In this document: piece by piece, positions 31,544-43,318 of the stretch
How the letters are laid out: each line of letters opens with the position of its first letter
Position numbering within the stretch: position 1 is the stretch's first letter
Source of the DNA: Stappia sp. WLB 29
GTDB lineage: Bacteria > Pseudomonadota > Alphaproteobacteria > Rhizobiales > Stappiaceae
Reading direction: 5' to 3'
Assembly (NCBI RefSeq): GCF_023507705.1
Contig: NZ_JALBGD010000002.1
Span: 372,001 to 436,000 of the forward strand
Length of the DNA: 64,000 bases
The notes under the pieces: model-generated
Seen by the model: only the letters and a program-made list of their open reading frames with translations
The model's database searches: none
Told to the model about the DNA's origin: nothing
Program-made: the position numbers and the translations under genes

Positions 31544-32560
31544 TCAGTTCAGCAGGCCCTGGCTTTCCAGGTAGGTGGTCAGCGTGTCGTAGACCTTGCG
31601 GGCGTTGTCCGAACGCTCGGCGATCTTGGCCCACTGATCCATGGCGATGGTGCGGAACCGGGCCCGCTCGTCCGCCGGCCAGTTGTGGACGGTGATGTTC
31701 GGATCGGCGGTGGCTTCCGCATAGGTCTTCAGGTCGTTCATCGACAGGATGGCGACCGAATCCTGCGCGAAGTCGCGCACCGAGACGGTGAGGATCGCCT
31801 GCAGGTCGGCCGGCAGGGCGTTCCACTTCTCGAGGTTCATCGACACCTCGACCAGCGGCATGGAGTGGAAGCCGGGATAGACGGGATGCGGGGCGACCTT
31901 GTGCAGGCCCTGCTGGTGATTGGTCGAGAACACGGTGGAGTCCGCGGCATCGATCACGCCCTTGTCGAGCGCGGTATAGACCTCCGAATAGGGAAGGTTA
32001 ACCGGCACCGCGCCGGCGGCGGCGAAGACTTCCTGGATCAGGCCTTCCGGAGCGCGGACCTTCAGGCCCTTGAGGTCGTCGACCCCGTCGAGCGGACGGG
32101 CGGAGACGAACCCTTCCAGGCCCGTCGTGGTGGCGCCGATGAAGCGCAGGCCGTAGGGGCCTTCCAGCTCGTTCATCAGCTCGTGGCCGCCACCATAGTT
32201 GATGAAGCGGAACATCTCGTCGGGCGACGACCAGGCGCCGATCGGGTTGGCGATCAGGCCGAAGGCCGGGTCCTTGCCGGAGAAGTAGCTGACATCGGTG
32301 ATATGGCCGTCGAGAATGCCGGAGCCGACGGCGTCCTGGGTCTCGTTGTATTCGACCACGGCGCCGACCGGCAGCAGTTCGATGACGAGGCGGCCGCCCG
32401 ACATTTCCTTCACCCGTTCGGTCCAGGCCTGCTGGATGGCGAAGTTCGGGTTGCCGGCCGGGTCGACCGACTGGAACGTGAACTCGAACTCCTGCGCCAG
32501 GGCACCGGTGCCGGCCAGCATGCCGGTGGCCAGGATGGCGGTTGCAAGCATCTTTCTCAT
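31544..32560 (-). CDS. TRAP transporter substrate-binding protein (DctP family)
   Basis: 338 aa. Start at 32560 (MRKMLATAIL) has GGGAGGAAAA upstream; the in-frame ATG at 32584 does not. Signal peptide to about residue 22 (GALAQ). Ligand region LKGLKVRAPEGLIQEVFAAAGA near 150 has the conserved Arg for a carboxylate, followed by PYSEVYTALDKGVIDAAD near 178. First transport gene after the hydroxyacid dehydrogenase, 84 bases downstream of it. Confidence 0.93.
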   Translation of the reverse strand: MRKMLATAILATGMLAGTGALAQEFEFTFQSVDPAGNPNFAIQQAWTERVKEMSGGRLVIELLPVGAVVEYNETQDAVGSGILDGHITDVSYFSGKDPAFGLIANPIGAWSSPDEMFRFINYGGGHELMNELEGPYGLRFIGATTTGLEGFVSARPLDGVDDLKGLKVRAPEGLIQEVFAAAGAVPVNLPYSEVYTALDKGVIDAADSTVFSTNHQQGLHKVAPHPVYPGFHSMPLVEVSMNLEKWNALPADLQAILTVSVRDFAQDSVAILSMNDLKTYAEATADPNITVHNWPADERARFRTIAMDQWAKIAERSDNARKVYDTLTTYLESQGLLN

Positions 32561-32644
32561 GGTTTTCCTCCCAGGGGCGGACATGTTTGTCTGATCCCAT
32601 GTCCTAGGATCGTGTCGCAGGTGTTTCCCGCGAAGTCTGCCACG

Positions 32645-33682
32645 TCAGGCGACGCCGCTCAGCGAGGTCGTGACCGGCGAATTCACCAGGTTGCGCAGCC
32701 GTCCCTCGCGCAGAAACTGCATGGCCGTCTCCACCGACAGGCGGCGGGCGTCGGCAACGCTTTCCGGGCTGGACCAGGCGGCATGCGGGGTGACGAACAG
32801 ACGTTCCCCGACGATAGGGTCGGCGCCGTTCGCATAGGCGCGGGCGATGGCATCCGCAGGCGAGGGCGGCTCGACCGGCAGCACGTCTATACCCGCTCCC
32901 GCGATAGTGCCGTTGCGCAGGGCCTCCAGCAGCGCATCCATGTCGATGATGGCGCCGCGGGCGGTGTTGATCAGCACTGCATGCGGCTGCATCTGCGCCA
33001 GCCGCTCCGCATTGATCATCTTCAGCGTCTGCGGCGTCAGCGGGCAGTGCAGGCTGACCACGTCCGCCTGCGCCAGCAGCTCCTCCAGACGGTCGCAGCG
33101 GTCGACACCGGCAGCGATCTCCGTGCCGCGCGAGACCAGCGGGTCATAGGCGAGCACGCGCATGCCGAAGGCCTTGGCCCGCAGCGCCGCGGCGATGCCG
33201 ATGCGGCCCAGCCCGACGACGCCGAAGGTCTTGCCTCTCAGGCGGGCGAGCAGCGGGGCGCGGGCATGGTCGAAGCCGTCCTGTGGCGAGGCCATCAGGT
33301 TGCGGTGATAGGAGCCGATGCCGCGGCGCAGGGTCAGCATCAGGGCGATGGCGTGGTCGGCCACCTCGCTGGTGCCGTAGTCGGGGGTGTTGCAGACCGG
33401 GATGCCGGCCGCGGCGGCCGCGTCCAGGTCGATATGGTCGAAGCCGACGCCGGCCCGCACGATGATGCGGCAGCGCTCCAGCCTTGCGATCATCTCGCGC
33501 GTCACCGGCATCTCGTGCCACACCACCATTGCGTCGCAGCCGCGCAGCACCACGTCCGGCAGCCGGTCGAAGCTACGCTCCCGATGGATGTCCCAGTCGA
33601 CCTCCTCGCCCGCCGTCGCCCTCTCGATCAGGGCGTCGTCCGGGTACTGGGCGTCGGGGGTCAGCAGGCGTAGGCGGGACAT
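32645..33682 (-). CDS. D-isomer-specific 2-hydroxyacid dehydrogenase family protein
   Basis: 345 aa NAD(P)-dependent dehydrogenase. Substrate-binding RAGVGFDHIDLDAAAA near 75; Rossmann motif GVVGLGRIGIAAALRAKAFG near 150; catalytic Arg in INTARGAIIDMDAL near 232, Glu in IDVLPVEPPSP near 258 and His in FVTPHAAWSSPES near 290. The His context is HAAW rather than the common HxAx(Y/F). Start at 33682 behind AGAGG. Probably first gene of the operon that continues with TRAP, GMC and FAH-family genes. Confidence 0.9.
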   Translation of the reverse strand: MSRLRLLTPDAQYPDDALIERATAGEEVDWDIHRERSFDRLPDVVLRGCDAMVVWHEMPVTREMIARLERCRIIVRAGVGFDHIDLDAAAAAGIPVCNTPDYGTSEVADHAIALMLTLRRGIGSYHRNLMASPQDGFDHARAPLLARLRGKTFGVVGLGRIGIAAALRAKAFGMRVLAYDPLVSRGTEIAAGVDRCDRLEELLAQADVVSLHCPLTPQTLKMINAERLAQMQPHAVLINTARGAIIDMDALLEALRNGTIAGAGIDVLPVEPPSPADAIARAYANGADPIVGERLFVTPHAAWSSPESVADARRLSVETAMQFLREGRLRNLVNSPVTTSLSGVA

Positions 33683-33731
33683 GGGGAACCTCTTGGAGTT
33701 CTCGGTACGCAATTGGCGATTGACGTTTCCA

Positions 33732-33747: not shown

Positions 33748-33853
33748 TTTCATGGAATGTCAAACGGTTTTTATCGCGCTTGAAAAAGTCCGGAATTCGG
33801 GTGATTTCAGGCTTGTTCGTCCGCGCTGGGACTGCCGCCGGACCGGGAAGGAG

Positions 33854-34582
33854 ATGCCCTTGTCACTCACTCAGGAGGCCTGCGAGCGGCTGCGCGATGC
33901 GATCGTGTCGGGCAAGTTCGAGTTCGGCGAACGGCTCTCGGAAGAGCAGATCGCCCGGGCACTGGGCATGAGCAAGGCGCCGGTGCGCGCGGCCTTCATG
34001 GACCTGCGCGACATGGGGCTGGTCACCATCGTGCCGCAGGCCGGCACCTATGTGGTCACGCCCTCGCGGCAGGATGTTGCGGAGATGAGCCGCTTCCGCG
34101 CGATGCTCGAGCGCGAGGCGCTGCAGGATGCGCTGGCGCGCGATCCCGATGCGCTGGTACACCGGCTGAACGGGGCGATCTCCCAGATGCAGCACGCCAT
34201 CGACGTGGGCGAGTGGTGGCTCTACAGCCGCGCCGACAGCGCCTATCACCGGGTCATCCTGCAGATGGCCGGCAACCGCTACCTGGAAAAGGCCTACGAC
34301 CTCACCGCGACGGCGCTGGAGGCGCTGCGCGCAAGGCTGCAGTCGGGCGAGGGCAATTTCTGGAGCCGGTCCTTCTCCGAGCATGTAGAGATGCGCGACC
34401 TCATCGTGCGGCGCGAGTTCGATGCGGCGCATGCCCTGCTGCAGGAGCATATCCTGGTGATCAACCGCTCGCTCGCCCTGCCGGAGAACGGGCTGCAGGC
34501 CGGCCCTTCCGCGCGGCAGAAGGGCAAGCGGCGCTCGGACGAGGAGTGCCTGGCGGCGCTGTCCGCCCCCGTACTTCCCTAG
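33854..34582 (+). CDS. GntR-family regulator with FCD effector domain
   Basis: 242 aa; start at 33854 behind GGGAAGGAG. Winged helix: LRDAIVSGKFEFGERLSEEQ, then IARALGMSKAPVRAAFMDL (about 13-52) and LVTIVPQAGTYVV. The FCD domain follows, with DSAYHRVILQMAGNRYLEKA near 150 and HVEMRDLIVRREFDAAHALL near 195, whose His residues normally hold a metal and carboxylate ligand. Divergent from the dehydrogenase/TRAP/GMC/FAH operon. Confidence 0.92.
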   Translation: MPLSLTQEACERLRDAIVSGKFEFGERLSEEQIARALGMSKAPVRAAFMDLRDMGLVTIVPQAGTYVVTPSRQDVAEMSRFRAMLEREALQDALARDPDALVHRLNGAISQMQHAIDVGEWWLYSRADSAYHRVILQMAGNRYLEKAYDLTATALEALRARLQSGEGNFWSRSFSEHVEMRDLIVRREFDAAHALLQEHILVINRSLALPENGLQAGPSARQKGKRRSDEECLAALSAPVLP

Positions 34583-34613: not shown

Positions 34614-35534
34614 TCAGCCGGCGGCCGGCGTGTCCGCGATCGCGTATTTGTCGATCATCGCTTCCAGATAGGCGATCGCCTCCGCGCCCTTGAGGGCGTC
34701 GCCCCACAGGCGTTCGGCGATGGATTCGTGCAGCGTCATCGCCTCGGCGGCCGAGGTGATCAAGGCAACGCCGAGGCGCACGTTCGGCTGTTCGCCGAGC
34801 CGGAACGGGCTGATCGCCAGCACCGAGCGGTTGGGCTGTCGGAAGATCTGGAAGCTCGTCGCCGGCACCGGGCCGCGCACGATGCCGATCTGGATGCCGA
34901 TGGGCTGGTCGCGCAGCATCGCCAGCAGATACTCCGCCTCGCGCCGTGCCATCAGCCGGCGGCGTTCCGCCGTTTCCGGCGGCAGGTCGTGGCGGCCGAT
35001 CAGCCCGTGCAGCAGGAACCGCTCCAGGTCGGCCGAGGAGATCAGGCTGACGATCAGCGGCCGGCGCAGGCGGAAGGCGTCCTTTCGCGCATGCAGGATC
35101 TCCAGCAGCCGCTCCACCGCCTCGGCGGCCTCGCCCGCAGGGTCCGTGCCTTCGGGAATCGATTCGAGCAGCACTTCCTTGAGGATCTCGTCGTAGCCGT
35201 CGGAGGTGAGCAGGTAGGACATCGGGCTGAACAGGCCGATGATCTGCTGGCACTCGTCCTCCAGCTGGCGCATGCGCTCGAAGAAGCCGATGGACGTGCT
35301 GACATATTCCACGCCGACGCCGAGCAGGCTCGGCAGCGACACGCCGAGTTCGTCGGCGATGGAGGTCAGCATCTCGATCTTGCGAATCTCGCCCTTTTCG
35401 GCCCGGTAGAGGGCAGCCCGAGAAATGCCGAGCTTCTCCGCCAGCGCCTCCGGCGTCAGCCCCTTGCCGAGGCGATAGGCCCTCAGCCTTGCGCCGATAT
35501 CGCTGAAACGGATGGTGTCGTCGTCCTGGGTCAA
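34614..35534 (-). CDS. XRE-family regulator with C-terminal effector domain
   Basis: 306 aa, apparently starting TTG at 35534 (no ATG or GTG in frame nearby). Helix-turn-helix at about 13-65: IGARLRAYRLGKGLTPEALA, then EKLGISRAALYRAEKGEIRK. The remaining 230 residues form an effector region I do not recognise by name. It is divergent from the TRAP/pyr operon and is its most likely regulator, so the effector may be orotate or dihydroorotate. Convergent with the GntR gene. Confidence 0.85.
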   Translation of the reverse strand: MTQDDDTIRFSDIGARLRAYRLGKGLTPEALAEKLGISRAALYRAEKGEIRKIEMLTSIADELGVSLPSLLGVGVEYVSTSIGFFERMRQLEDECQQIIGLFSPMSYLLTSDGYDEILKEVLLESIPEGTDPAGEAAEAVERLLEILHARKDAFRLRRPLIVSLISSADLERFLLHGLIGRHDLPPETAERRRLMARREAEYLLAMLRDQPIGIQIGIVRGPVPATSFQIFRQPNRSVLAISPFRLGEQPNVRLGVALITSAAEAMTLHESIAERLWGDALKGAEAIAYLEAMIDKYAIADTPAAG

Positions 35535-35623
35535 AAGGGTGTCCCGTGGGCTGGGAGCAGGCGATGCCGGCGCGAGGCCGGATGACCGTTGCAGTGTTCA
35601 ATTCCTGGCATGATAATCAGTTC

Positions 35624-35657
35624 TTGGACGAATTGTCCAATTGTCTCATTTTTGAGA
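35624..35657. promoter_or_regulatory. Two inverted repeats upstream of the orotate-type operon
   Basis: TTGGAC-N5-GTCCAA (35624-35640) is followed directly by TCTCA-TTTT-TGAGA (35644-35657). They lie about 90 bases after the XRE start on one side and 112 bases before the binding-protein start on the other. The first is a plausible XRE operator; TTGACA at 35664-35669 could be a -35 element for the operon. Confidence 0.55.
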
Positions 35658-35768
35658 TGAGTCGTTGACAGCATCCGGATCGCTCAATACGCTGTTCTCT
35701 TCCGCGCCTGTATCGCGCCAAGAAACAAAAGCGTATCCAGTGCCTGTTAGCCTTAGAGGTGGAGCCCT

Positions 35769-36791
35769 ATGACACATACTGTTCGCAAACTGGCCGCAAC
35801 GGCCGTTCTCGCCGTTGCCGGTGTCGCCTTCTCGACCGGTGCCTTCGCGGCGGATTTCGTCGCCAAGATCGGCCATCTGGAGTCGACCCAGCAGTCCCGC
35901 CACGTGCACCTCGAGAAGGTTGCGGCACTGGTCGCCGAGCGCACCAACGGCGCCGTCGAGTTCCAGATCTTCCCGCAGGGCCAGCTCGGCCAGCAGCGCG
36001 AGATGACCGAGGGCGTGCAGCTCGGCTCGCTTGAGGCGACCGTCGCTCCGGCTGCCTTCCTCGGCGGCTTCAACCCGGTCGTGTCGATCCTCGACATTCC
36101 CTTCCTGCTGCCGGAAGACGATGCCAAGGCCCAGGAACTGCGTTCGGGCACCTTCGGCAAGGCGCTTTGCGAGTCCTTCGAAAGCCGCGGCGTCGAGTGC
36201 CTGATGCTCTGGCCGAACGGCCGGAAGAACTTCTCCTCCAGCAAGCCGCTCGCCTCCATGGAAGACTTCTCCGGCCAGAAGTTCCGCGTGATGGATTCCA
36301 GCATCCTGATCGAGCAGTTCAAGGCCGTCGGCGCCTCCGCCATCGCGCTGCCCTTCGGCGAGCTCTACACCTCGCTGCAGACCGGCGTCGTCGATGCCCA
36401 GGAGAACCCGCTCGACACCATCCGCGCCATGAAGTTCTACGAGGTGCAGAAGTACCTGGTGCTCTCCAACCACGGCGCGATGGAGGACGTGATCCTCTTC
36501 AATCCGACCTTCTGGGCCAGCCTGCCGGAAGAGTACCGCACCATCATCACCGACGCCTTCGCCGAGGTCGTCCCGGACTTGATCGCCCACAAGAAGGCCT
36601 CGGTCGCCTCCTCGCTGGAAGAGATCAAGGCTGCCGGCGTCGAGGTGCGCGAGCTCTCCGCCGAGGAGAAGGCCGCGTTCCGCGAGACCATGTACCCGGC
36701 TGCCCGTAACGCCTACATCCAGGGCGCGGGCGAGGAAGGCCTCGAGCTGGTGAACCTGTACGAACAGGAATACGCCGCGGTTACCAAGTAA
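35769..36791 (+). CDS. TRAP binding protein, candidate orotate/dihydroorotate receptor
   Basis: 340 aa DctP protein with a signal peptide to about residue 28 (STGAFAA); start behind GAGGTGG. Ligand region FSGQKFRVMDSSILIEQFKA near 170 has the conserved Arg that binds a carboxylate, followed by PFGELYTSLQTGVVDAQENP near 197. Orotate, dihydroorotate and carbamoyl-aspartate all carry such a carboxylate. Family membership is certain; the ligand is inferred from the downstream genes. Confidence 0.92.
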   Translation: MTHTVRKLAATAVLAVAGVAFSTGAFAADFVAKIGHLESTQQSRHVHLEKVAALVAERTNGAVEFQIFPQGQLGQQREMTEGVQLGSLEATVAPAAFLGGFNPVVSILDIPFLLPEDDAKAQELRSGTFGKALCESFESRGVECLMLWPNGRKNFSSSKPLASMEDFSGQKFRVMDSSILIEQFKAVGASAIALPFGELYTSLQTGVVDAQENPLDTIRAMKFYEVQKYLVLSNHGAMEDVILFNPTFWASLPEEYRTIITDAFAEVVPDLIAHKKASVASSLEEIKAAGVEVRELSAEEKAAFRETMYPAARNAYIQGAGEEGLELVNLYEQEYAAVTK

Positions 36792-36806
36792 TCGTCGGCG
36801 GTGCCC

Positions 36807-36832
36807 GCGGGCGCGGCCCGGACCGCGCCCGC
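36807..36832 (+). other. Hairpin-rich spacer between binding protein and small permease genes
   Basis: Perfect 10-bp stem GCGGGCGCGG / CCGCGCCCGC with loop CCCGGA, 15 bases after the binding-protein stop and followed by CTCTTTACC. More hairpins follow in the same 265-base spacer (36792-37056): CCTGCCG/CGGCAGG and GCGGGC/GCCCGC. The spacer has no gene. It probably sets a high binding-protein to permease ratio. Confidence 0.7.
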
Positions 36833-37056
36833 AGGCTCTTTACCTGCCGCTTCGTCCGGCAGGGCGGGCCCGGACAAAGCCCGCACAGTCTTCCGCCTGC
36901 GGTGTTGCAGCGGGCGGATGCCACCCGGCCCGTACCGGCCGGCGTCAGTACAGACCTGAATGTCCGCGCGGCTCGGACCGCGCCCGCAAGCTTCCTCCCG
37001 ACCACCGTCCGGTGGCGGACGGGACGGACCATGCGGCGGATGTCTGGAGCAGATCT

Positions 37057-37560
37057 ATGCGCAGTGCTCTTTCGGTCCTGCGCACCGTCGAACGGTGCGC
37101 ACTCGTTTCGATTTTCCTGGCGATGGCGGGGCTCTACTTCGTCAATGTCGTCGTTCGCGCCTCGGGCAGCCCCCTTGCCTCCAGCCTCGGCTGGATCGAG
37201 GAGGCGGTCCGGTTGATGAACCTCTACCTGGTCTTCCTCGCCCTCGGCTACGCGCTCGAGATCGGCCGGCACGTCGCCGTCGATACCTGGCGGTCTCGCA
37301 TCGCCGAGGCGACCCGCCTGCCGGTCCAGCGCATCATCGATGCCGTCGGTTTCCTCTTTTCGCTCTATCTCGTCTGGCTCGCCTGGAAGATGACGCTGTT
37401 CGTCTTCGGCTCCGGCCAAAAAAGCCCGACGCTGGGCCTCGAGATGGGTTGGATCTATGTCGCGCCCCTGGTCGGCTTCGGGCTGCTTGCCCTGCGCTAC
37501 CTGCTGAGCTTCCTCGGGCTGATCGACCGCACGCCGGCACGGGAGGCCGACGAGGCATGA
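37057..37560 (+). CDS. TRAP transporter small permease (DctQ family)
   Basis: 167 aa with four hydrophobic segments, starting ATG at 37057 (MRSALSVLRTVERCAL) behind GGAGC. Conserved GWIEEAVRLMNLYLVFLAL near 45 with the acidic pair of helix 2, and EIGRHVAVDTW near 69. Four-base overlap with the large permease. Confidence 0.9.
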   Translation: MRSALSVLRTVERCALVSIFLAMAGLYFVNVVVRASGSPLASSLGWIEEAVRLMNLYLVFLALGYALEIGRHVAVDTWRSRIAEATRLPVQRIIDAVGFLFSLYLVWLAWKMTLFVFGSGQKSPTLGLEMGWIYVAPLVGFGLLALRYLLSFLGLIDRTPAREADEA

Positions 37561-38843
37561 TTCTCCTCTTCCTCATCGTTGCGCTGGCCGTCGTGCTGCT
37601 GATCGCGGGCTTCGAGATGTTTCTCGTGCTCGGCGTGCCGGCCCTCTTGATCAAGCAGTTCTTCTACGGCTCCCTGCCGGATCCGGTCGTGGTGCAGAAG
37701 ATTCTCGGCGGCATCAACCATTCGACGCTGCTCGCCATTCCCTTCTTCATCCTGGCGGCGGAGCTGATGGGCGAGGGCCAGATCGCCCGCCGCCTCACCA
37801 GCCTCGTCCAGTCGCTGCTCGGCCATCGCAAGGGCGGCATCGGCTACACCATCGTCGGCGGCTCGATGGCCTTCGGCTCCGTGTCCGGCTCGGCGCCGGC
37901 GACGGTGGCGGCGATGGGCCGGCTGGTCTATCCGGAAATGCGCAAGGCCGGCTTCAGCGACAAGTTCTCGCTCGGCCTCATCGCCTCCAGCGCCGAGACG
38001 GCGTTGCTGATCCCGCCGTCGATCACCTTCATCATCTACGGCTGGATGACCGGCACCTCGGTCGCGCGCCTGTTCGTCGCCGGCATGGCGGTCGGCGTGG
38101 TGCTCGGCCTCGTCTTCGCCATCATGGTCGCCGTCGAGGCGCGCCGCGCCGGGGTTTCGGCCGGCGAGCGCACCTCCTGGGGCGACCGTTTGCGCGCCGT
38201 CGCGCATTCGGGCTGGGCGCTCGGCATGCCGGCGATCATCCTCGGCGGCATCTATTCGGGCGTCTTCACCCCGACCGAGGCCGCCGCCGTCAGCGTCGTC
38301 TACGCCATCTTCGTGGAGATGGTCGTGTTCCGCGAGCTGACCCTGGCGAAGCTGTTCAAGGTGACCGAGCGGGCGGCCGTGTCCACCGCCATCATCTTCA
38401 TCCTGCTGGCGCTCGGCGGCCTGCTCTCCTACTTCATCACGCTGGCGCAGATCCCGGGGCAGATCCTGGAGTTCCTGGCCGCCGTCGATGCGGGGCCGAT
38501 CGTCTTCCTGCTGGTGGTCAACGTCGTCTTCCTGATCGCGGGCATGTTCATCGACCCGAATTCGGCGCTGCTGATCCTCGTGCCGCCGCTCTATCCGGTG
38601 GCGATGGCGATGGGCATCGACCCGGTGCATTTCGGCATGATCGTCACGCTCAACATCTCCGCCGGCATGATCACGCCACCCTTCGGGCTCGACCTGTTCG
38701 TGGCGTCCTCGACGCTCGGCAAGCCGGTGATGACGATCATTTCCGGCATCTGGCCCTTCGTGATCGCCAATCTCGTGGCCCTCGGGATCATCACCTACAT
38801 CCCGTCGATCTCCACCTTCCTGCCCAATCTGGTGTTCGGATGA
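37557..38843 (+). CDS. TRAP transporter large permease (DctM family)
   Basis: 428 aa. Signatures: GSVSGSAPATVAAMGRLVYPEM near 102, ALLIPPSITFIIYGWMTG near 147, SGVFTPTEAAAVSVVYAIF near 236 and GMITPPFGLDLFVASS near 366. Its ATG lies in the stop of the small permease and its own stop overlaps the PyrK-like start (ATGA), tying transport directly to the enzymes. Confidence 0.94.
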   Translation: MILLFLIVALAVVLLIAGFEMFLVLGVPALLIKQFFYGSLPDPVVVQKILGGINHSTLLAIPFFILAAELMGEGQIARRLTSLVQSLLGHRKGGIGYTIVGGSMAFGSVSGSAPATVAAMGRLVYPEMRKAGFSDKFSLGLIASSAETALLIPPSITFIIYGWMTGTSVARLFVAGMAVGVVLGLVFAIMVAVEARRAGVSAGERTSWGDRLRAVAHSGWALGMPAIILGGIYSGVFTPTEAAAVSVVYAIFVEMVVFRELTLAKLFKVTERAAVSTAIIFILLALGGLLSYFITLAQIPGQILEFLAAVDAGPIVFLLVVNVVFLIAGMFIDPNSALLILVPPLYPVAMAMGIDPVHFGMIVTLNISAGMITPPFGLDLFVASSTLGKPVMTIISGIWPFVIANLVALGIITYIPSISTFLPNLVFG

Positions 38844-39691
38844 CCAGCGTTCTGACAAGACCCGCGTCCGCTGCCGGCGGACGGGCGCAACCCGTCGTCT
38901 TCGAGCGGGGCCTCGCCGTGCTCTCCAACGACCCGGTCAACGGCGAGTACATGCGCCTCGTCCTGGCGGCCCCGCGCGAGATGCTCGATCTGTGCCGTGC
39001 CGGCCAGTTCTTCAACCTGCTGTGCCCGGCGCTCGGCGGCGAGACGCCCTATCTGCGCCGGCCGATGAGCATCTACGGCTTCTATCCCGAGCGCGGCGAG
39101 TTGCACTTCCTCTACAAGGTGGCGGGGGCCGGCACCCGGGCGCTGGCGCAGCTGCGCGAGGGCGATGCGCTCAACGTCATGGGCCCGCTCGGCCAGGGCT
39201 TCCGCATCGACGACGACTGGCAGCGGCTGGTGCTCGTCGCCCGCGGCGTCGGCCTTGCAACGCTGGCGCCGCTGGCGCTGGAGGCCAACCGCCTCGGCCG
39301 CCATCTCACCGCGATCTGCAGCGCCCGCCATCCGGACCTGCTGATGTCCATCGACTATTTCCGCGAGCTGGGGGCCGAGATCATCCCGGTCACCGACGCG
39401 GAAGGCACCTCGTCGCTCGAGCATCTGGAACAGGTGATCGAGGAGAGGGTCGCAGGTCCCGGCATCGATGCCTTCTACACCTGCGGCTCCAACCGCCTGC
39501 TGACCCTGTTGCAGCGCATCGGCAAGCGCCACGGCATTCCCGGCGAGATCGCGCTGGAGCAGCAGATGGCCTGCGGCCTCGGCATGTGCCACTGCTGCGT
39601 CCGGCCGTTCCGCAAGGGCGACAAGACCGTGCAGCTGCGCGTGTGCCGCGAAGGCCCCGTCTTCGATATCCAGGAGGCCATGCCATGGTAG
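38840..39691 (+). CDS. pyrK: PyrK-like electron-transfer subunit of dihydroorotate dehydrogenase
   Basis: 283 aa ferredoxin-reductase-like subunit that links NAD(H) to the PyrD flavin. FAD motif YLRRPMSIYGFYPE near 72; GPLGQGFRI near 114; NAD site LVLVARGVGLATLAPLALEA near 130; [2Fe-2S] ligands ACGLGMCHCCVRPF near 250, then CREGPVF. This is the PyrK pattern. It overlaps the DctM stop by 4 bases and pyrD by 7, so the PyrD-PyrK pair is made together with a transporter. That is unlike a biosynthetic setting and suggests NADH-driven orotate reduction. Confidence 0.9.
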   Translation: MTSVLTRPASAAGGRAQPVVFERGLAVLSNDPVNGEYMRLVLAAPREMLDLCRAGQFFNLLCPALGGETPYLRRPMSIYGFYPERGELHFLYKVAGAGTRALAQLREGDALNVMGPLGQGFRIDDDWQRLVLVARGVGLATLAPLALEANRLGRHLTAICSARHPDLLMSIDYFRELGAEIIPVTDAEGTSSLEHLEQVIEERVAGPGIDAFYTCGSNRLLTLLQRIGKRHGIPGEIALEQQMACGLGMCHCCVRPFRKGDKTVQLRVCREGPVFDIQEAMPW

Positions 39692-40629
39692 ACCTGTCCG
39701 TCGACATCGCCGGCCTGACGCTGAAGAACCCGATCATGCCCGCTTCGGGCACCTTCTCCGAGGAACTGGCGGAGGTCTTCGACATCGAGTGCCTCGGCGC
39801 CCATGTCACCAAGACGATCACCCGGGGCCTGCGCGACGGCAATCCGACGCCGCGCGTGTGCGAGGTCGGCTCGTCGATGCTCAATTCCATCGGCATCCCG
39901 AGCAAGGGCGTTAGCGCCTTCCTCGACAAGGTGGTGCCGTTCTACCGCGCCTACGAGACGCCGCTGGTCGTGTCGATCTCCGGCAACACGGCGGACGAAT
40001 TCGCCCGCCTGTGCTCGGAAGTGACGGTGGAGGGCGTTGCCGCCATCGAGGTCAACATCTCCTGTCCGAACATCGAGGAAGACGGCAAGGCCTTTGCCAT
40101 CCGTCCCTCCTCGACCTACGACGTGATGCGCAAGCTGCGCGCGGCGACGCATCTGCCGCTGTGGGCCAAGCTGACGCCCAACACCGGCGAGACGCCGGAA
40201 GTGGCGCGCGCGGCGCAGGAAGGCGGCGCCGACGCGCTGGTCGTCGCCAACACGCTGCTGGCCATGGCCATCGACATCCGCACCCGGCGGCCGAAGCTCG
40301 GCAACCTGATGGGCGGCCTGTCGGGCCCCTCGCTGAAGCCCATCGCCCTGCGGATGGCCTATCAGTGCGCCAAGTCGACGACGATCCCGGTGATCGGCTG
40401 CGGCGGCATCTCCACCGCCGAGGACGTGATCGAGTTCCTCATCGCCGGTGCCACCGCCGTGCAGGTGGGCACCGCCACCTTCATCAATCCGACCGCGATG
40501 GTCACCGTCATCGCCGAGCTGGAGCGCTATCTGGAGCGCGAGAAGCTGTCGTCCGTCCGCGACCTGATCGGCACGCTGATCGACGAGGAGCAGAAGGAGG
40601 GCGTCGTGTTCATGGAGGCGGCGCCGTGA
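39685..40629 (+). CDS. pyrD: Dihydroorotate dehydrogenase, class 1B-like catalytic subunit
   Basis: 314 aa FMN enzyme interconverting dihydroorotate and orotate. Visible: NPIMPASGTF near 15, KTITRGLRDGNPTPR near 43, catalytic base C127 in VNISCPN (cysteine marks class 1, serine would mark class 2), KLTPN near 159, GLSGPSLKPIALRM near 205 and the FMN phosphate site GCGGISTAEDVIEFLIAGA near 235. SD AGGAGG lies inside pyrK. In this operon the reverse reaction (orotate to dihydroorotate with NADH) is the likely direction; that is inference. Confidence 0.93.
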   Translation: MVDLSVDIAGLTLKNPIMPASGTFSEELAEVFDIECLGAHVTKTITRGLRDGNPTPRVCEVGSSMLNSIGIPSKGVSAFLDKVVPFYRAYETPLVVSISGNTADEFARLCSEVTVEGVAAIEVNISCPNIEEDGKAFAIRPSSTYDVMRKLRAATHLPLWAKLTPNTGETPEVARAAQEGGADALVVANTLLAMAIDIRTRRPKLGNLMGGLSGPSLKPIALRMAYQCAKSTTIPVIGCGGISTAEDVIEFLIAGATAVQVGTATFINPTAMVTVIAELERYLEREKLSSVRDLIGTLIDEEQKEGVVFMEAAP

Positions 40630-41909
40630 CCGCGCTGAGGAAGTCCGGGGCCTACGACCGCGCGGAGGAACTGCGCCTTGCCGGCTTCCTCTTCGACGAG
40701 ATCGCGCGCATGTCGCCGGACGTGGAGGGCGTCAGCCGTCCGGCCTTTTCCGACATCGAGACGAAGACGCTGTCCTTCCTGGAGGACTTCGCCCGCCGCG
40801 AGGGGCTGGAGGTCTGGTACGACGCCGGGCTCAACGCCAATTTCTGCCTGCCGGGCGACCGCGACGCCGAGCGCTACACGGTCATCGGCTCGCATGTCGA
40901 CAGCGTCCCCTTCGGCGGCAATTTCGACGGCCTTGCCGGTGTCGTCGCCGGCCTGCTGTGCCTGGTGCGGGCGCGGCGCGAGGGGCGCAAGTTCGCTTTC
41001 CCGGTGCATGTGCTTGCCATGCGCGGCGAGGAAAGCGCCTGGTTCGGCCCGTGCTACATCGGCTCCAAGGCGCTGACCGGCACGCTGTCCGCCTCCGATC
41101 TCGCCGCCCGCCACAAGGGCGACGGCCGCACGCTCGATGCGCATATGGAAGCCATCGGCATCGACATGGCGCCGGTGCGCGCCGGCAAGCCCTTGATCGA
41201 CCTGTCGCGGATCGAGGCCTATCTCGAGGTGCATATCGAGCAGGGGCCGCTGCTGATCGGCAAGGCGGTCCCGGCCGCCGTGGTCTCGGGCATCCGTGGC
41301 AACATCCGCTACCGCTCCCTGCGCTGCGTCGGCGAGGCCGGCCATTCCGGCGCCGTGCCGCGCGCCTTCCGCCGCGATCCGGTGCTGGCCATGGCCGACC
41401 TCCTGGTGCGGCTCGACGAAAGCTGGGCAACGATTCTCGCCAAGGGCGACGACCTGGTGCTGACCAGCGGCATCGTCGGCACCGACCCGGATAAGCACGC
41501 GATGACGCGCATTCCCGACCAGGTGTCCTTCAGTCTCGACATCCGCAGCCAGAGCGCGCGGGTGCTGGACGAGATGCGCGACCTGCTGAAGACGGAGATG
41601 GCGCAGATCGAGCGGGACCGGAAAGTGCGCTTCGAGCTCGACGAGGAGTTGCGCGTTGCCCCCGCCCTGTGCGATGCCGATCTCGTCGCGCGCCTGAGCA
41701 AGGCCATGGAGACAGTCGGCCAGGAGCCGTTCGTGATGGCGAGCGGCGGCGGACACGATGCGGCGGTCTTCTCGGCCGCCGGCGTGCCGGCCGGCATGGT
41801 CTTCGTGCGCAATCGCAACGGCTCGCACAATCCGCAGGAGGCGATGGAGCTGCCCGATCTCCTTTCCGCCACCGATATCGTCCATCAATATCTTATGGTT
41901 GCGCCATGA
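40626..41909 (+). CDS. M20-type Zn amidohydrolase, candidate carbamoyl-aspartate hydrolase
   Basis: 427 aa, GTG start overlapping the pyrD stop (GTGA). Belongs to the hydantoinase/carbamoylase (AmaB/allantoate amidohydrolase) group of M20: metal ligands in [15 protein letters not shown] near 91, the Glu pair in [15 protein letters not shown] near 134, HIEQGPLL near 205, [16 protein letters not shown] near 237 and [17 protein letters not shown] near 375. Relatives cleave N-carbamoyl amino acids to amino acid, CO2 and ammonia. Between PyrD and PyrC the natural substrate is N-carbamoyl-L-aspartate (ureidosuccinate). Substrate is inferred. Confidence 0.85.
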
Positions 41910-42955
41910 CACAGCTGACGATCCGGACGCCCGACGACTGGCATCTCCACCTGCGCGACGGGGCGATGCTCGCCGGCGTCCTGCCGCACAGCTCCGCCGA
42001 TTTCGCGCGTGCGATCATCATGCCGAACCTGGTGCCGCCGGTGGTCACCACCGCCCATGCGGAAGCCTATCGCCAGCGCATCCTCGCCGCCCTTCCCGAG
42101 GGGCACGACTTCACGCCGCTCATGGTGCTCTACCTGACCGAGGACACCGAGGCGGACGATGTCGAGGCCGGTTTCCGGAGCGGCCTCGTCAAGGCGGTGA
42201 AGCTCTATCCGGCCGGCGCCACCACCAATTCGCATGGCGGCGTGCGCGACTTTTCCAAGGTCATCCCGGTGCTGGAGCGCATGGCCGAGATCGGCCTGCC
42301 GCTCTGCGTGCATGGCGAGGTGACGGATCCTGCCGTGGACATCTTCGATCGCGAGGCGGTGTTCCTGGAAACGGTGCTCGATCCGCTGCGCCGGCGCGTT
42401 CCGGGCCTGCGCGTCGTGCTGGAGCATGTGACGACGCGCAACGGCGTCGAGTATGTGCGCTCGCAGGAGAAGGATCTGGCCGCGACGATCACGGTTCATC
42501 ACCTGATGATCAACCGCAATGCGATCTTCGCCGGCGGCATCCGCCCGCACTACTACTGCCTGCCCGTCGCCAAGCGCGAGGAACACCGGCTGGCGCTGCG
42601 CGAGGCCGCGACCTCGGGCGACGCGCGCTTCTTCCTCGGCACCGATTCGGCGCCGCATGTGGATCCGGCGAAGGAATGCGGTTGCGGCTGCGCCGGCATC
42701 TTCACCGCGCCGAACGCGATGGCCTGCCTTGCCCATGTCTTCGAGGAGGAGGGCGCGCTCGACAAGCTCGAGGCCTTCGCCTCGCTCAACGGACCGGCCT
42801 TCTACCGTCTGCCGCCGAACGAGGGCCGGCTCGTCCTGGAAAAGCGCGAGGCGCCGGTCCCGGTGCCGGACAAGGTGGTGACCGGCGACGGCACGGTCAC
42901 GGTTTTCGACCCCATGGTGCCGGTCCGCTGGACGGTCGCGGCCCGCAGGTCGTAA
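41906..42955 (+). CDS. pyrC: Dihydroorotase, E. coli-type (class II)
   Basis: 349 aa binuclear zinc cyclic amidase. Ligands all present: H13 and H15 (WHLHLRDG), carboxylated K99 ([12 protein letters not shown]), H136 (LCVHGEV), H174 (LEHVTT) and D247 (LGTDSAPH). It opens dihydroorotate to N-carbamoyl-L-aspartate in the catabolic direction. ATGA overlap with the amidohydrolase gene. A GCCGGC/GCCGGC hairpin (42958-42975) follows the stop. Enzyme identity is firm; catabolic use is inferred from the operon. Confidence 0.94.
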
Positions 42956-43003
42956 GGGCCGGCGGCCAAGCCGGCGAAAAAATCTTCTTCAAGGGAGAGC
43001 GTG

Positions 43004-43318
43004 ATGTTCATTGAGGTTGCGAATGGTCTGACCGAGCACAGCGCGAGCGTGCGGAGCTTCGAGGCGTGCGCGCGCGAGGCCCGTGCCCGCATCGCCGGCG
43101 AGCCGGAGCATGCTGTCGCCTGGCTGCTGGTGTCGCGCGCGGCCCAGGCTTTCGTCGATGCCTATGACGACCAGCCGCTGACGCTCGACGTCGCCGGCCA
43201 GGCGCTGGAGCAGTTCCGTGATCTGCTGCAGACGCTCGAGACCGCCTATGCGGGCGGCTCCGCCGAAGCGAAGGTCGAGGCGCTGAACAAGATCGCGCTG
43301 CGTCTCAACGCGATGTGA
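43004..43318 (+). CDS. Uncharacterised 104-aa protein after pyrC
   Basis: Starts ATG at 43004 (MFIEVANGLTEHSASV) with AAGGGAG upstream. Mostly helical and soluble by composition (RSFEACAREARARIAGEPEH, later AKVEALNKIALRLNAM). I do not recognise the family. It follows the pyrC gene after 48 bases and a small hairpin and ends at a strong terminator, so it may be the last gene of that operon or an independent gene. Confidence 0.65.
   Translation: MFIEVANGLTEHSASVRSFEACAREARARIAGEPEHAVAWLLVSRAAQAFVDAYDDQPLTLDVAGQALEQFRDLLQTLETAYAGGSAEAKVEALNKIALRLNAM

Follow-up and report, generated by a model that had tools for sequence, protein, structure and literature searches.

In a stretch of 64,000 nucleotides from the marine bacterium Stappia sp. 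WLB 29 (hereafter the window; genome of 4.75 Mb, 99.9% complete), we find at positions 34614–43318 a gene set that is most likely an inducible operon for the uptake and reductive breakdown of orotate, a pyrimidine precursor, and we hold this function with fair confidence. It is proposed by comparison, from the identities of the genes, their conserved linkage, the close match of a substrate-binding protein to an orotate-bound structure, and a palindrome in front of the operon. Coordinates without a prefix are positions within the window.

In the pathway that we propose, a tripartite ATP-independent periplasmic (TRAP) system would import orotate, and PyrD–PyrK would reduce it with NADH to L-dihydroorotate, this being the presumed direction of the reaction. 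PyrC would open the dihydroorotate ring to give N-carbamoyl-L-aspartate, the presumed substrate of an M20-family hydrolase that would cleave it to L-aspartate, CO2 and NH3. An XRE-family regulator would control the operon via a single palindrome upstream of dctP, with orotate as the supposed inducer. The features are as follows.

34614–35534, minus strand: XRE-family regulator (HTH_31/HTH_3), read divergently from the operon; its start codon is uncertain
35644–35657, no strand: palindrome TCTCATTTTTGAGA (TCTCA-N4-TGAGA), probable XRE operator
35665–35670, plus strand: TTGACA, which follows the palindrome at a distance of 7 bases and by its sequence may be the −35 box of a dctP promoter
35769–36791, plus strand: dctP, TRAP substrate-binding protein, probably for orotate (PF03480; 459 bits, E = 9e-137 against the orotic-acid-bound PDB entry 4NN3)
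37012–37560 (alternative start 37057), plus strand: dctQ, TRAP small permease (PF04290)
37557–38843, plus strand: dctM, TRAP large permease (PF06808; TIGR00786 over cut-off)
38840–39691, plus strand: pyrK-like FAD/[2Fe-2S] NAD-linked electron-transfer subunit (PF10418; best PDB chains 5ksw_B and 1ep1_B)
39685–40629, plus strand: pyrD, class 1B-like dihydroorotate dehydrogenase, proposed orotate reductase (NF005574, 359 bits; 1ep1_A, 246 bits)
40626–41909, plus strand: M20 carbamoylase-family hydrolase, proposed N-carbamoyl-L-aspartate amidohydrolase (ureidosuccinase) (TIGR01879; 3n5f)
41906–42955, plus strand: pyrC, type II dihydroorotase (TIGR00856, 424 bits; 4lfy/1xge)
43004–43318, plus strand: helical protein of 104 amino acids, of no known family, that accompanies the operon

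Open reading frames and family profiles recover every member of the run named in a preliminary description of this DNA (TRAP dctPQM, PyrK-like protein, PyrD, M20 hydrolase and PyrC, with a divergent XRE regulator). The overlaps of 4 to 7 bases from dctQ to pyrC are likewise as given there, successive genes sharing 4, 4, 7, 4 and 4 bases. The reading frame for the 104-residue protein lies within the same span, where that description left it unnamed, and is part of the set.

The binding protein and the enzymes

DctP probably binds and imports orotate, as the preliminary description had proposed, and the strongest single hint at this substrate is its likeness to 4NN3, with which it aligns over residues 12–340 at 63% identity; the next PDB chain scores 170 bits. 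The excerpted text of PMC11668362 describes 4NN3 as a protein of Maridesulfovibrio salexigens with orotic acid bound and with a lysine where a conserved arginine is usual, and a review, likewise in excerpt, names orotic acid among TRAP ligands (PMC5812351). Our comparison with M. salexigens concerns the closely similar binding protein by itself and not its gene neighbourhood. Lys153 of DctP is invariant in 13/13 alignment rows, and on our own mapping, in unverified numbering, it may be the lysine described for 4NN3. An orotate substrate-binding protein was reportedly the subject of Vetting 2015. DctP is 56–67% identical to orthologues of other genera, its closest named relative being that of Stappia indica (99%), and 20% identical to the other DctP of the window.

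PyrD scores over the cut-off of NF005574, and its SCPN motif aligns with that of Lactococcus PyrD (1ep1_A). PyrK exceeds the cut-off for the Fe–S domain PF10418 and falls below that of all NCBIfam PyrK models; its cysteines align to Lactococcus PyrK (1ep1_B), of which it is a divergent relative. The adjoining genes thus encode a PyrD with the catalytic Cys motif and a PyrK with the [2Fe-2S] cysteines, as in class 1B, where the roles of both motifs are those we presume. The Lactococcus enzyme, which we take to be biosynthetic, has the same two-subunit family and SCPN motif. It differs in that the window's PyrDK coexists with a separate quinone-type PyrD. PyrC matches the TIGR00856 equivalog, and in alignment with 4lfy its type II metal-site motifs, as we understand their roles, are intact.

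The M20 protein lies over the cut-off of TIGR01879 (254 bits), and both by sequence and by predicted fold (mean predicted local distance difference test score, pLDDT, 87.1) its best PDB match is the L-carbamoylase 3n5f. Residues H90, D101, E135, E136, H203 and H401, presumably those of the metal site, are invariant in 21/21 rows. From gene linkage alone, we infer that the enzyme is an N-carbamoyl-L-aspartate hydrolase (ureidosuccinase, EC 3.5.1.7). In a tree of 37 M20 proteins, from which the near-identical L047–L049 and the genome's other M20 (a very long branch in a first quick tree) were excluded, the window's enzyme falls into a 17-member clade with support of 100/100, every member of which is linked to pyrK and pyrD. 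Positions such as R397 and K164 distinguish this clade from the rest of the alignment.

The proposed chemistry, from orotate via dihydroorotate and carbamoyl-aspartate to aspartate, CO2 and NH3, is the same as the reductive orotate fermentation of the strict anaerobe Clostridium (Zymobacterium) oroticum, known from biochemistry of the 1950s. Unlike that pathway, the Stappia-type set comes with a transporter, a regulator and a probable operator and occurs mostly in Alphaproteobacteria; no gene cluster for the C. oroticum pathway was present in the literature matches listed. Reductive uracil breakdown (PreA, dihydropyrimidinase and beta-ureidopropionase) follows the same three-step logic of reduction, ring opening and decarbamoylation, but the window uses the dihydroorotate dehydrogenase and dihydroorotase families. 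We rejected the uracil pathway as the function of the operon: its PyrD reaches 145 bits against the PreA model NF006183 (cut-off 335), and PreA itself is found in a separate uracil-type cluster of the same genome (C23:20829–30696; D-hydantoinase, M20 and PreA).

Linkage, regulation and spread

A search of the window's order with the M20 protein gave a match at E = 1e-80 or better in 51/397 genomes, its own included. Apart from its own locus, 69 places were listed, and we compared 39 of them, mostly the best-scoring. Genes pyrK and pyrD adjoin the M20 gene in 23 of these 39 loci: in 19/19 at an M20 identity of at least 55% (rounded), 4/9 at 45–50% and 0/11 at 44% or less. A TRAP system is present in 14 of the 23. 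Elsewhere the core is found beside other transporters, ATP-binding cassette (ABC) genes in L050 and L055 and a major facilitator superfamily (MFS) gene in L068 and L071, the members profiled of these groups. In the ABC variants, a nucleoside phosphorylase-like gene lies within the transporter cluster (L050:5858–6673, L211:2364–3131).

A second comparison started from DctP, with 174 confirmed relatives in named genomes, and covered the loci of the best 80. Of these loci, 68 have the pyrK-pyrD-M20 core, and an XRE relative of at least 45% identity likewise occurs in 68/80. Chance association of neighbours is ruled out by the linkage counts in the M20 and DctP loci. Counting pieces of at least 45% identity, the 68 core loci carry pyrC alone in 8 cases, pyrE alone in 31, both in 25 and neither in 4. 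The frequent presence of pyrE also favours orotate as the compound handled, since PyrE acts on it. The 104-residue protein, predicted to be helical (pLDDT 90.8), has a relative (tblastn, E = 1e-3) in 54/68 core loci and in 0/12 core-less loci, 3 of the latter being short contigs, and it follows the operon across transporter types. It matches no family profile and no PDB fold at E = 0.001 or better; its scattered weak Pfam matches were judged to be chance.

The XRE/dctP intergenic regions of 51 named loci and the window contain TCTCA-N4-TGAGA in 38/52 cases (single-base shuffle mean, 0.005) and the word CGTTGACA in 12/52. The palindrome was discovered and counted on this same set, and since many of the genomes are related, the 38 occurrences are not independent events. 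It also appears twice in each of six ABC-type loci (6/6) that were not used for discovery, with one copy ahead of pyrK and the other next to the XRE gene. The window's genome has a single exact copy of the palindrome, as do two others of its genus, G300 and G146, and each copy lies at the operon; a reversed control pattern also turns up once in the window's genome but not in G300 or G146. A search of the window alone that tolerates one mismatch gives one match, as expected by chance (mean 1.10). The nine core-less loci scanned have none (0/9), the TRAP loci L060–L063 also lack it, and among other genomes G366 has two copies and G207 one. We regard the palindrome as the probable operator to which the XRE regulator would bind.

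The core is also found on plasmids. An M20 search across 72,556 plasmids matched 73 records, of which 53 are from Klebsiella (46% identity where listed). A pyrK-pyrD-M20-pyrC-XRE stretch is shared at 99% or more by 53/53 matching records, all from Klebsiella, and is absent from 20,395 Escherichia coli records. On the one Klebsiella plasmid that we opened (NZ_CP069904.1, 229058–244278), the order is MFS, pyrK, pyrD, M20, pyrC, XRE and a small protein, with lacY and lacZ nearby and identities to the window of 44% (PyrK), 54% (PyrD), 46% (M20), 54% (PyrC) and 44% (XRE). Its MFS protein is 67–69% identical to those of L071 and L068, and its small protein, missed by plain tblastn, gives a profile match of 97% probability; both were observed on this one plasmid, whose stretch lacks the palindrome. 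Milk or mastitis milk is named as the source in 9/53 Klebsiella records. Milk is rich in orotate, and these sources suggestively fit a link to it, with sampling that is uneven. Agrobacterium and Nitratireductor plasmids carry ABC and TRAP forms of the operon.

Beyond its function in Stappia, we lean, by a narrow balance, towards viewing the set as a mobile and locally regulated orotate-degradation regulon that would provide the first gene for ureidosuccinase activity and would extend, with exchangeable transporters, from marine Alphaproteobacteria to Klebsiella plasmids; in Stappia, the sole intact dihydroorotase would run toward synthesis or breakdown according to the orotate level.

Biosynthetic gene copies and alternative functions

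A check for further copies of pyrC and pyrD had been set beforehand in the preliminary description, and its outcome is divided. A second PyrD is present, a class 2 quinone-type enzyme (C33:276816), and this second PF01180 gene rules out the operon PyrD as a sole, biosynthetic copy; another PF01180 gene that outscores the operon PyrD exists in 14/14 operon genomes checked. The second pyrC is one by name alone. PyrB is encoded at C37:3278, followed by a type I 'PyrC' (C37:4279–5493; NF006558 equivalog, 663 bits) that has GVT in place of the HVH of the same genome's hydantoinases, a Ser in place of a later His, and a Gly in place of the Asp of (S/T)DH. We take the altered residues to be metal ligands, so that despite the dihydroorotase name of its family model the protein looks like an inactive PyrC', an analysis made in the window's genome alone. 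Comparison enzymes of the PRK09060 type, which we take to be active, have Gln for the first His, and a single change is therefore not decisive.

The remaining two PyrC relatives of the genome are dihydropyrimidinases, and no PRK09060-type dihydroorotase scores over the cut-off there. Judged from these sequences, the operon PyrC is the sole intact dihydroorotase found in the Stappia genome. Because the pyrB-linked copy has lost its ligands and no PRK09060-type enzyme was found, the operon PyrC probably serves synthesis as well as breakdown. Of 18 genomes compared, and judged by the profile cut-offs, 6 possess a PRK09060-type dihydroorotase but lack a type II PyrC, the reverse holds for 11, and one (G122, 94% complete) has neither. 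In the genus of the window, 4/4 genomes checked have one type II PyrC, and it lies in the operon.

Several observations weigh against a dedicated, orotate-induced breakdown operon. With the sole intact dihydroorotase found in Stappia lying in the operon, a switch that answers to orotate only would deprive synthesis of this enzyme if nothing were expressed at a basal level or from within the operon, and M20 would draw on the same carbamoyl-aspartate that synthesis needs; PyrC may be kept available by an internal promoter or by basal expression. No pyrC was found in 35/68 core loci. The core is missing from 12/80 DctP loci (three of them, L107, L116 and L126, very short contigs), and in the 12 core-less genomes an M20 orthologue (66%) was found once, the others having none or relatives of at most 43% (the control genome was positive). 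The palindrome is missing in 14/52 intergenic regions and in the MFS loci L068, L071 and L072, and a scan of 19 further core loci over their full length found it in 7 and not in 12. Operon genomes G040, G145 and G302 have 8 copies each, and G116, a family member without an M20 match in the order-wide search, has one (the similar G041 has none). Finally, the 21 pyrKD-linked enzymes in the M20 tree do not form one clade (3 changes), with a single clade not rejected (approximately unbiased test, p = 0.11).

DctP relatives can occur without the degradation core, which speaks against every DctP being strictly catabolic. We profiled 20 neighbouring proteins of 9 of the 12 core-less loci (L111, L115, L116, L127, L135, L145, L158, L164 and L165; L107, L126 and L146 lay outside the profiling) for an alternative pathway and found neither a common theme nor a pyrimidine gene. 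In a Desulfobulbaceae metagenome-assembled genome (L116, L196), dctPQM and M20-pyrC-pyrE are found on separate contigs, the first short and the second of 4.4 kb, with identities of 66% (M20), 69% (PyrC) and 76% (PyrE). The 4.4-kb contig may be a mis-binned alphaproteobacterial piece, as opposed to a transfer.

Such core-less relatives would fit a scavenging of orotate for nucleotides, in which orotate taken up by the transporter would go to PyrE and PyrC would work for de novo synthesis, while PyrDK and M20 would keep intermediates in balance or remove them and would not support growth. PyrE, often the gene closing the operon, occurs in 56/68 core loci (54 at a stricter score), the genome's best-scoring pyrE lies at the operon in 9/14 genomes (one, G207, at a mere 78 bits), and PyrC is the sole intact dihydroorotase found in Stappia. 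Nevertheless, scavenging requires neither a carbamoylase nor an NAD-linked PyrDK beside a quinone-type enzyme, and the most constant part of the loci is pyrK-pyrD-M20; the window's operon has no pyrE, the best one of the genome being at C6. The set moreover sits on plasmids of Klebsiella, which has chromosomal pyrB, pyrC, pyrD and pyrE. We therefore consider scavenging unlikely. We give the least credence to the same enzymes acting on a related compound, be it dihydroorotate, N-carbamoyl-aspartate, a substituted orotate or a hydantoin. The M20 carbamoylase family does act on many ureido acids, and the specificity of PyrD and PyrC is assigned by family and motif; but 4NN3 was crystallised with orotic acid, PyrE also uses orotate, and PyrC fits the dihydroorotase equivalog and not the hydantoinases, which the genome has elsewhere.

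If orotate breakdown is indeed the function, the operon would provide a gene-level basis for the reductive pathway and a candidate gene for ureidosuccinase, and orotate would be a nutrient common enough to sustain dedicated transporters and a local regulator. Specialists would not be surprised by the chemistry; how widely it occurs, Klebsiella plasmids included, would be new to them. Annotators should note that the biosynthesis labels carried by operon-type pyrD, pyrK and pyrC may be misleading and that the 'pyrC' next to pyrB in this Stappia looks inactive.

Literature and neighbouring genes

No description of such an operon was seen among the literature matches listed, judged by titles and the starts of abstracts; most subscription journals lay outside the search, so absence from print is not established. 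A literature search on 'ureidosuccinase' and related terms found none, and the excerpt of a mutant-fitness table in PMC10041152 names a Ruegeria dihydroorotase and pyrE and no orotate degradation. The operon is widespread and its description at the gene level apparently new. The novelty suggested in the preliminary description holds for a published account, but not for the system as such, since the operon is frequent among Alphaproteobacteria, Klebsiella plasmids carry a related set, and an orotate-binding TRAP protein was already known.

The second, unrelated TRAP DctP of the window is found next to a GntR/FCD regulator, in the region of 31544–33712 (minus strand) and 33752–34582 (plus strand). 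The same region includes, by sequence reading alone, a putative D-2-hydroxyacid dehydrogenase, and these genes probably form another uptake and catabolic unit.

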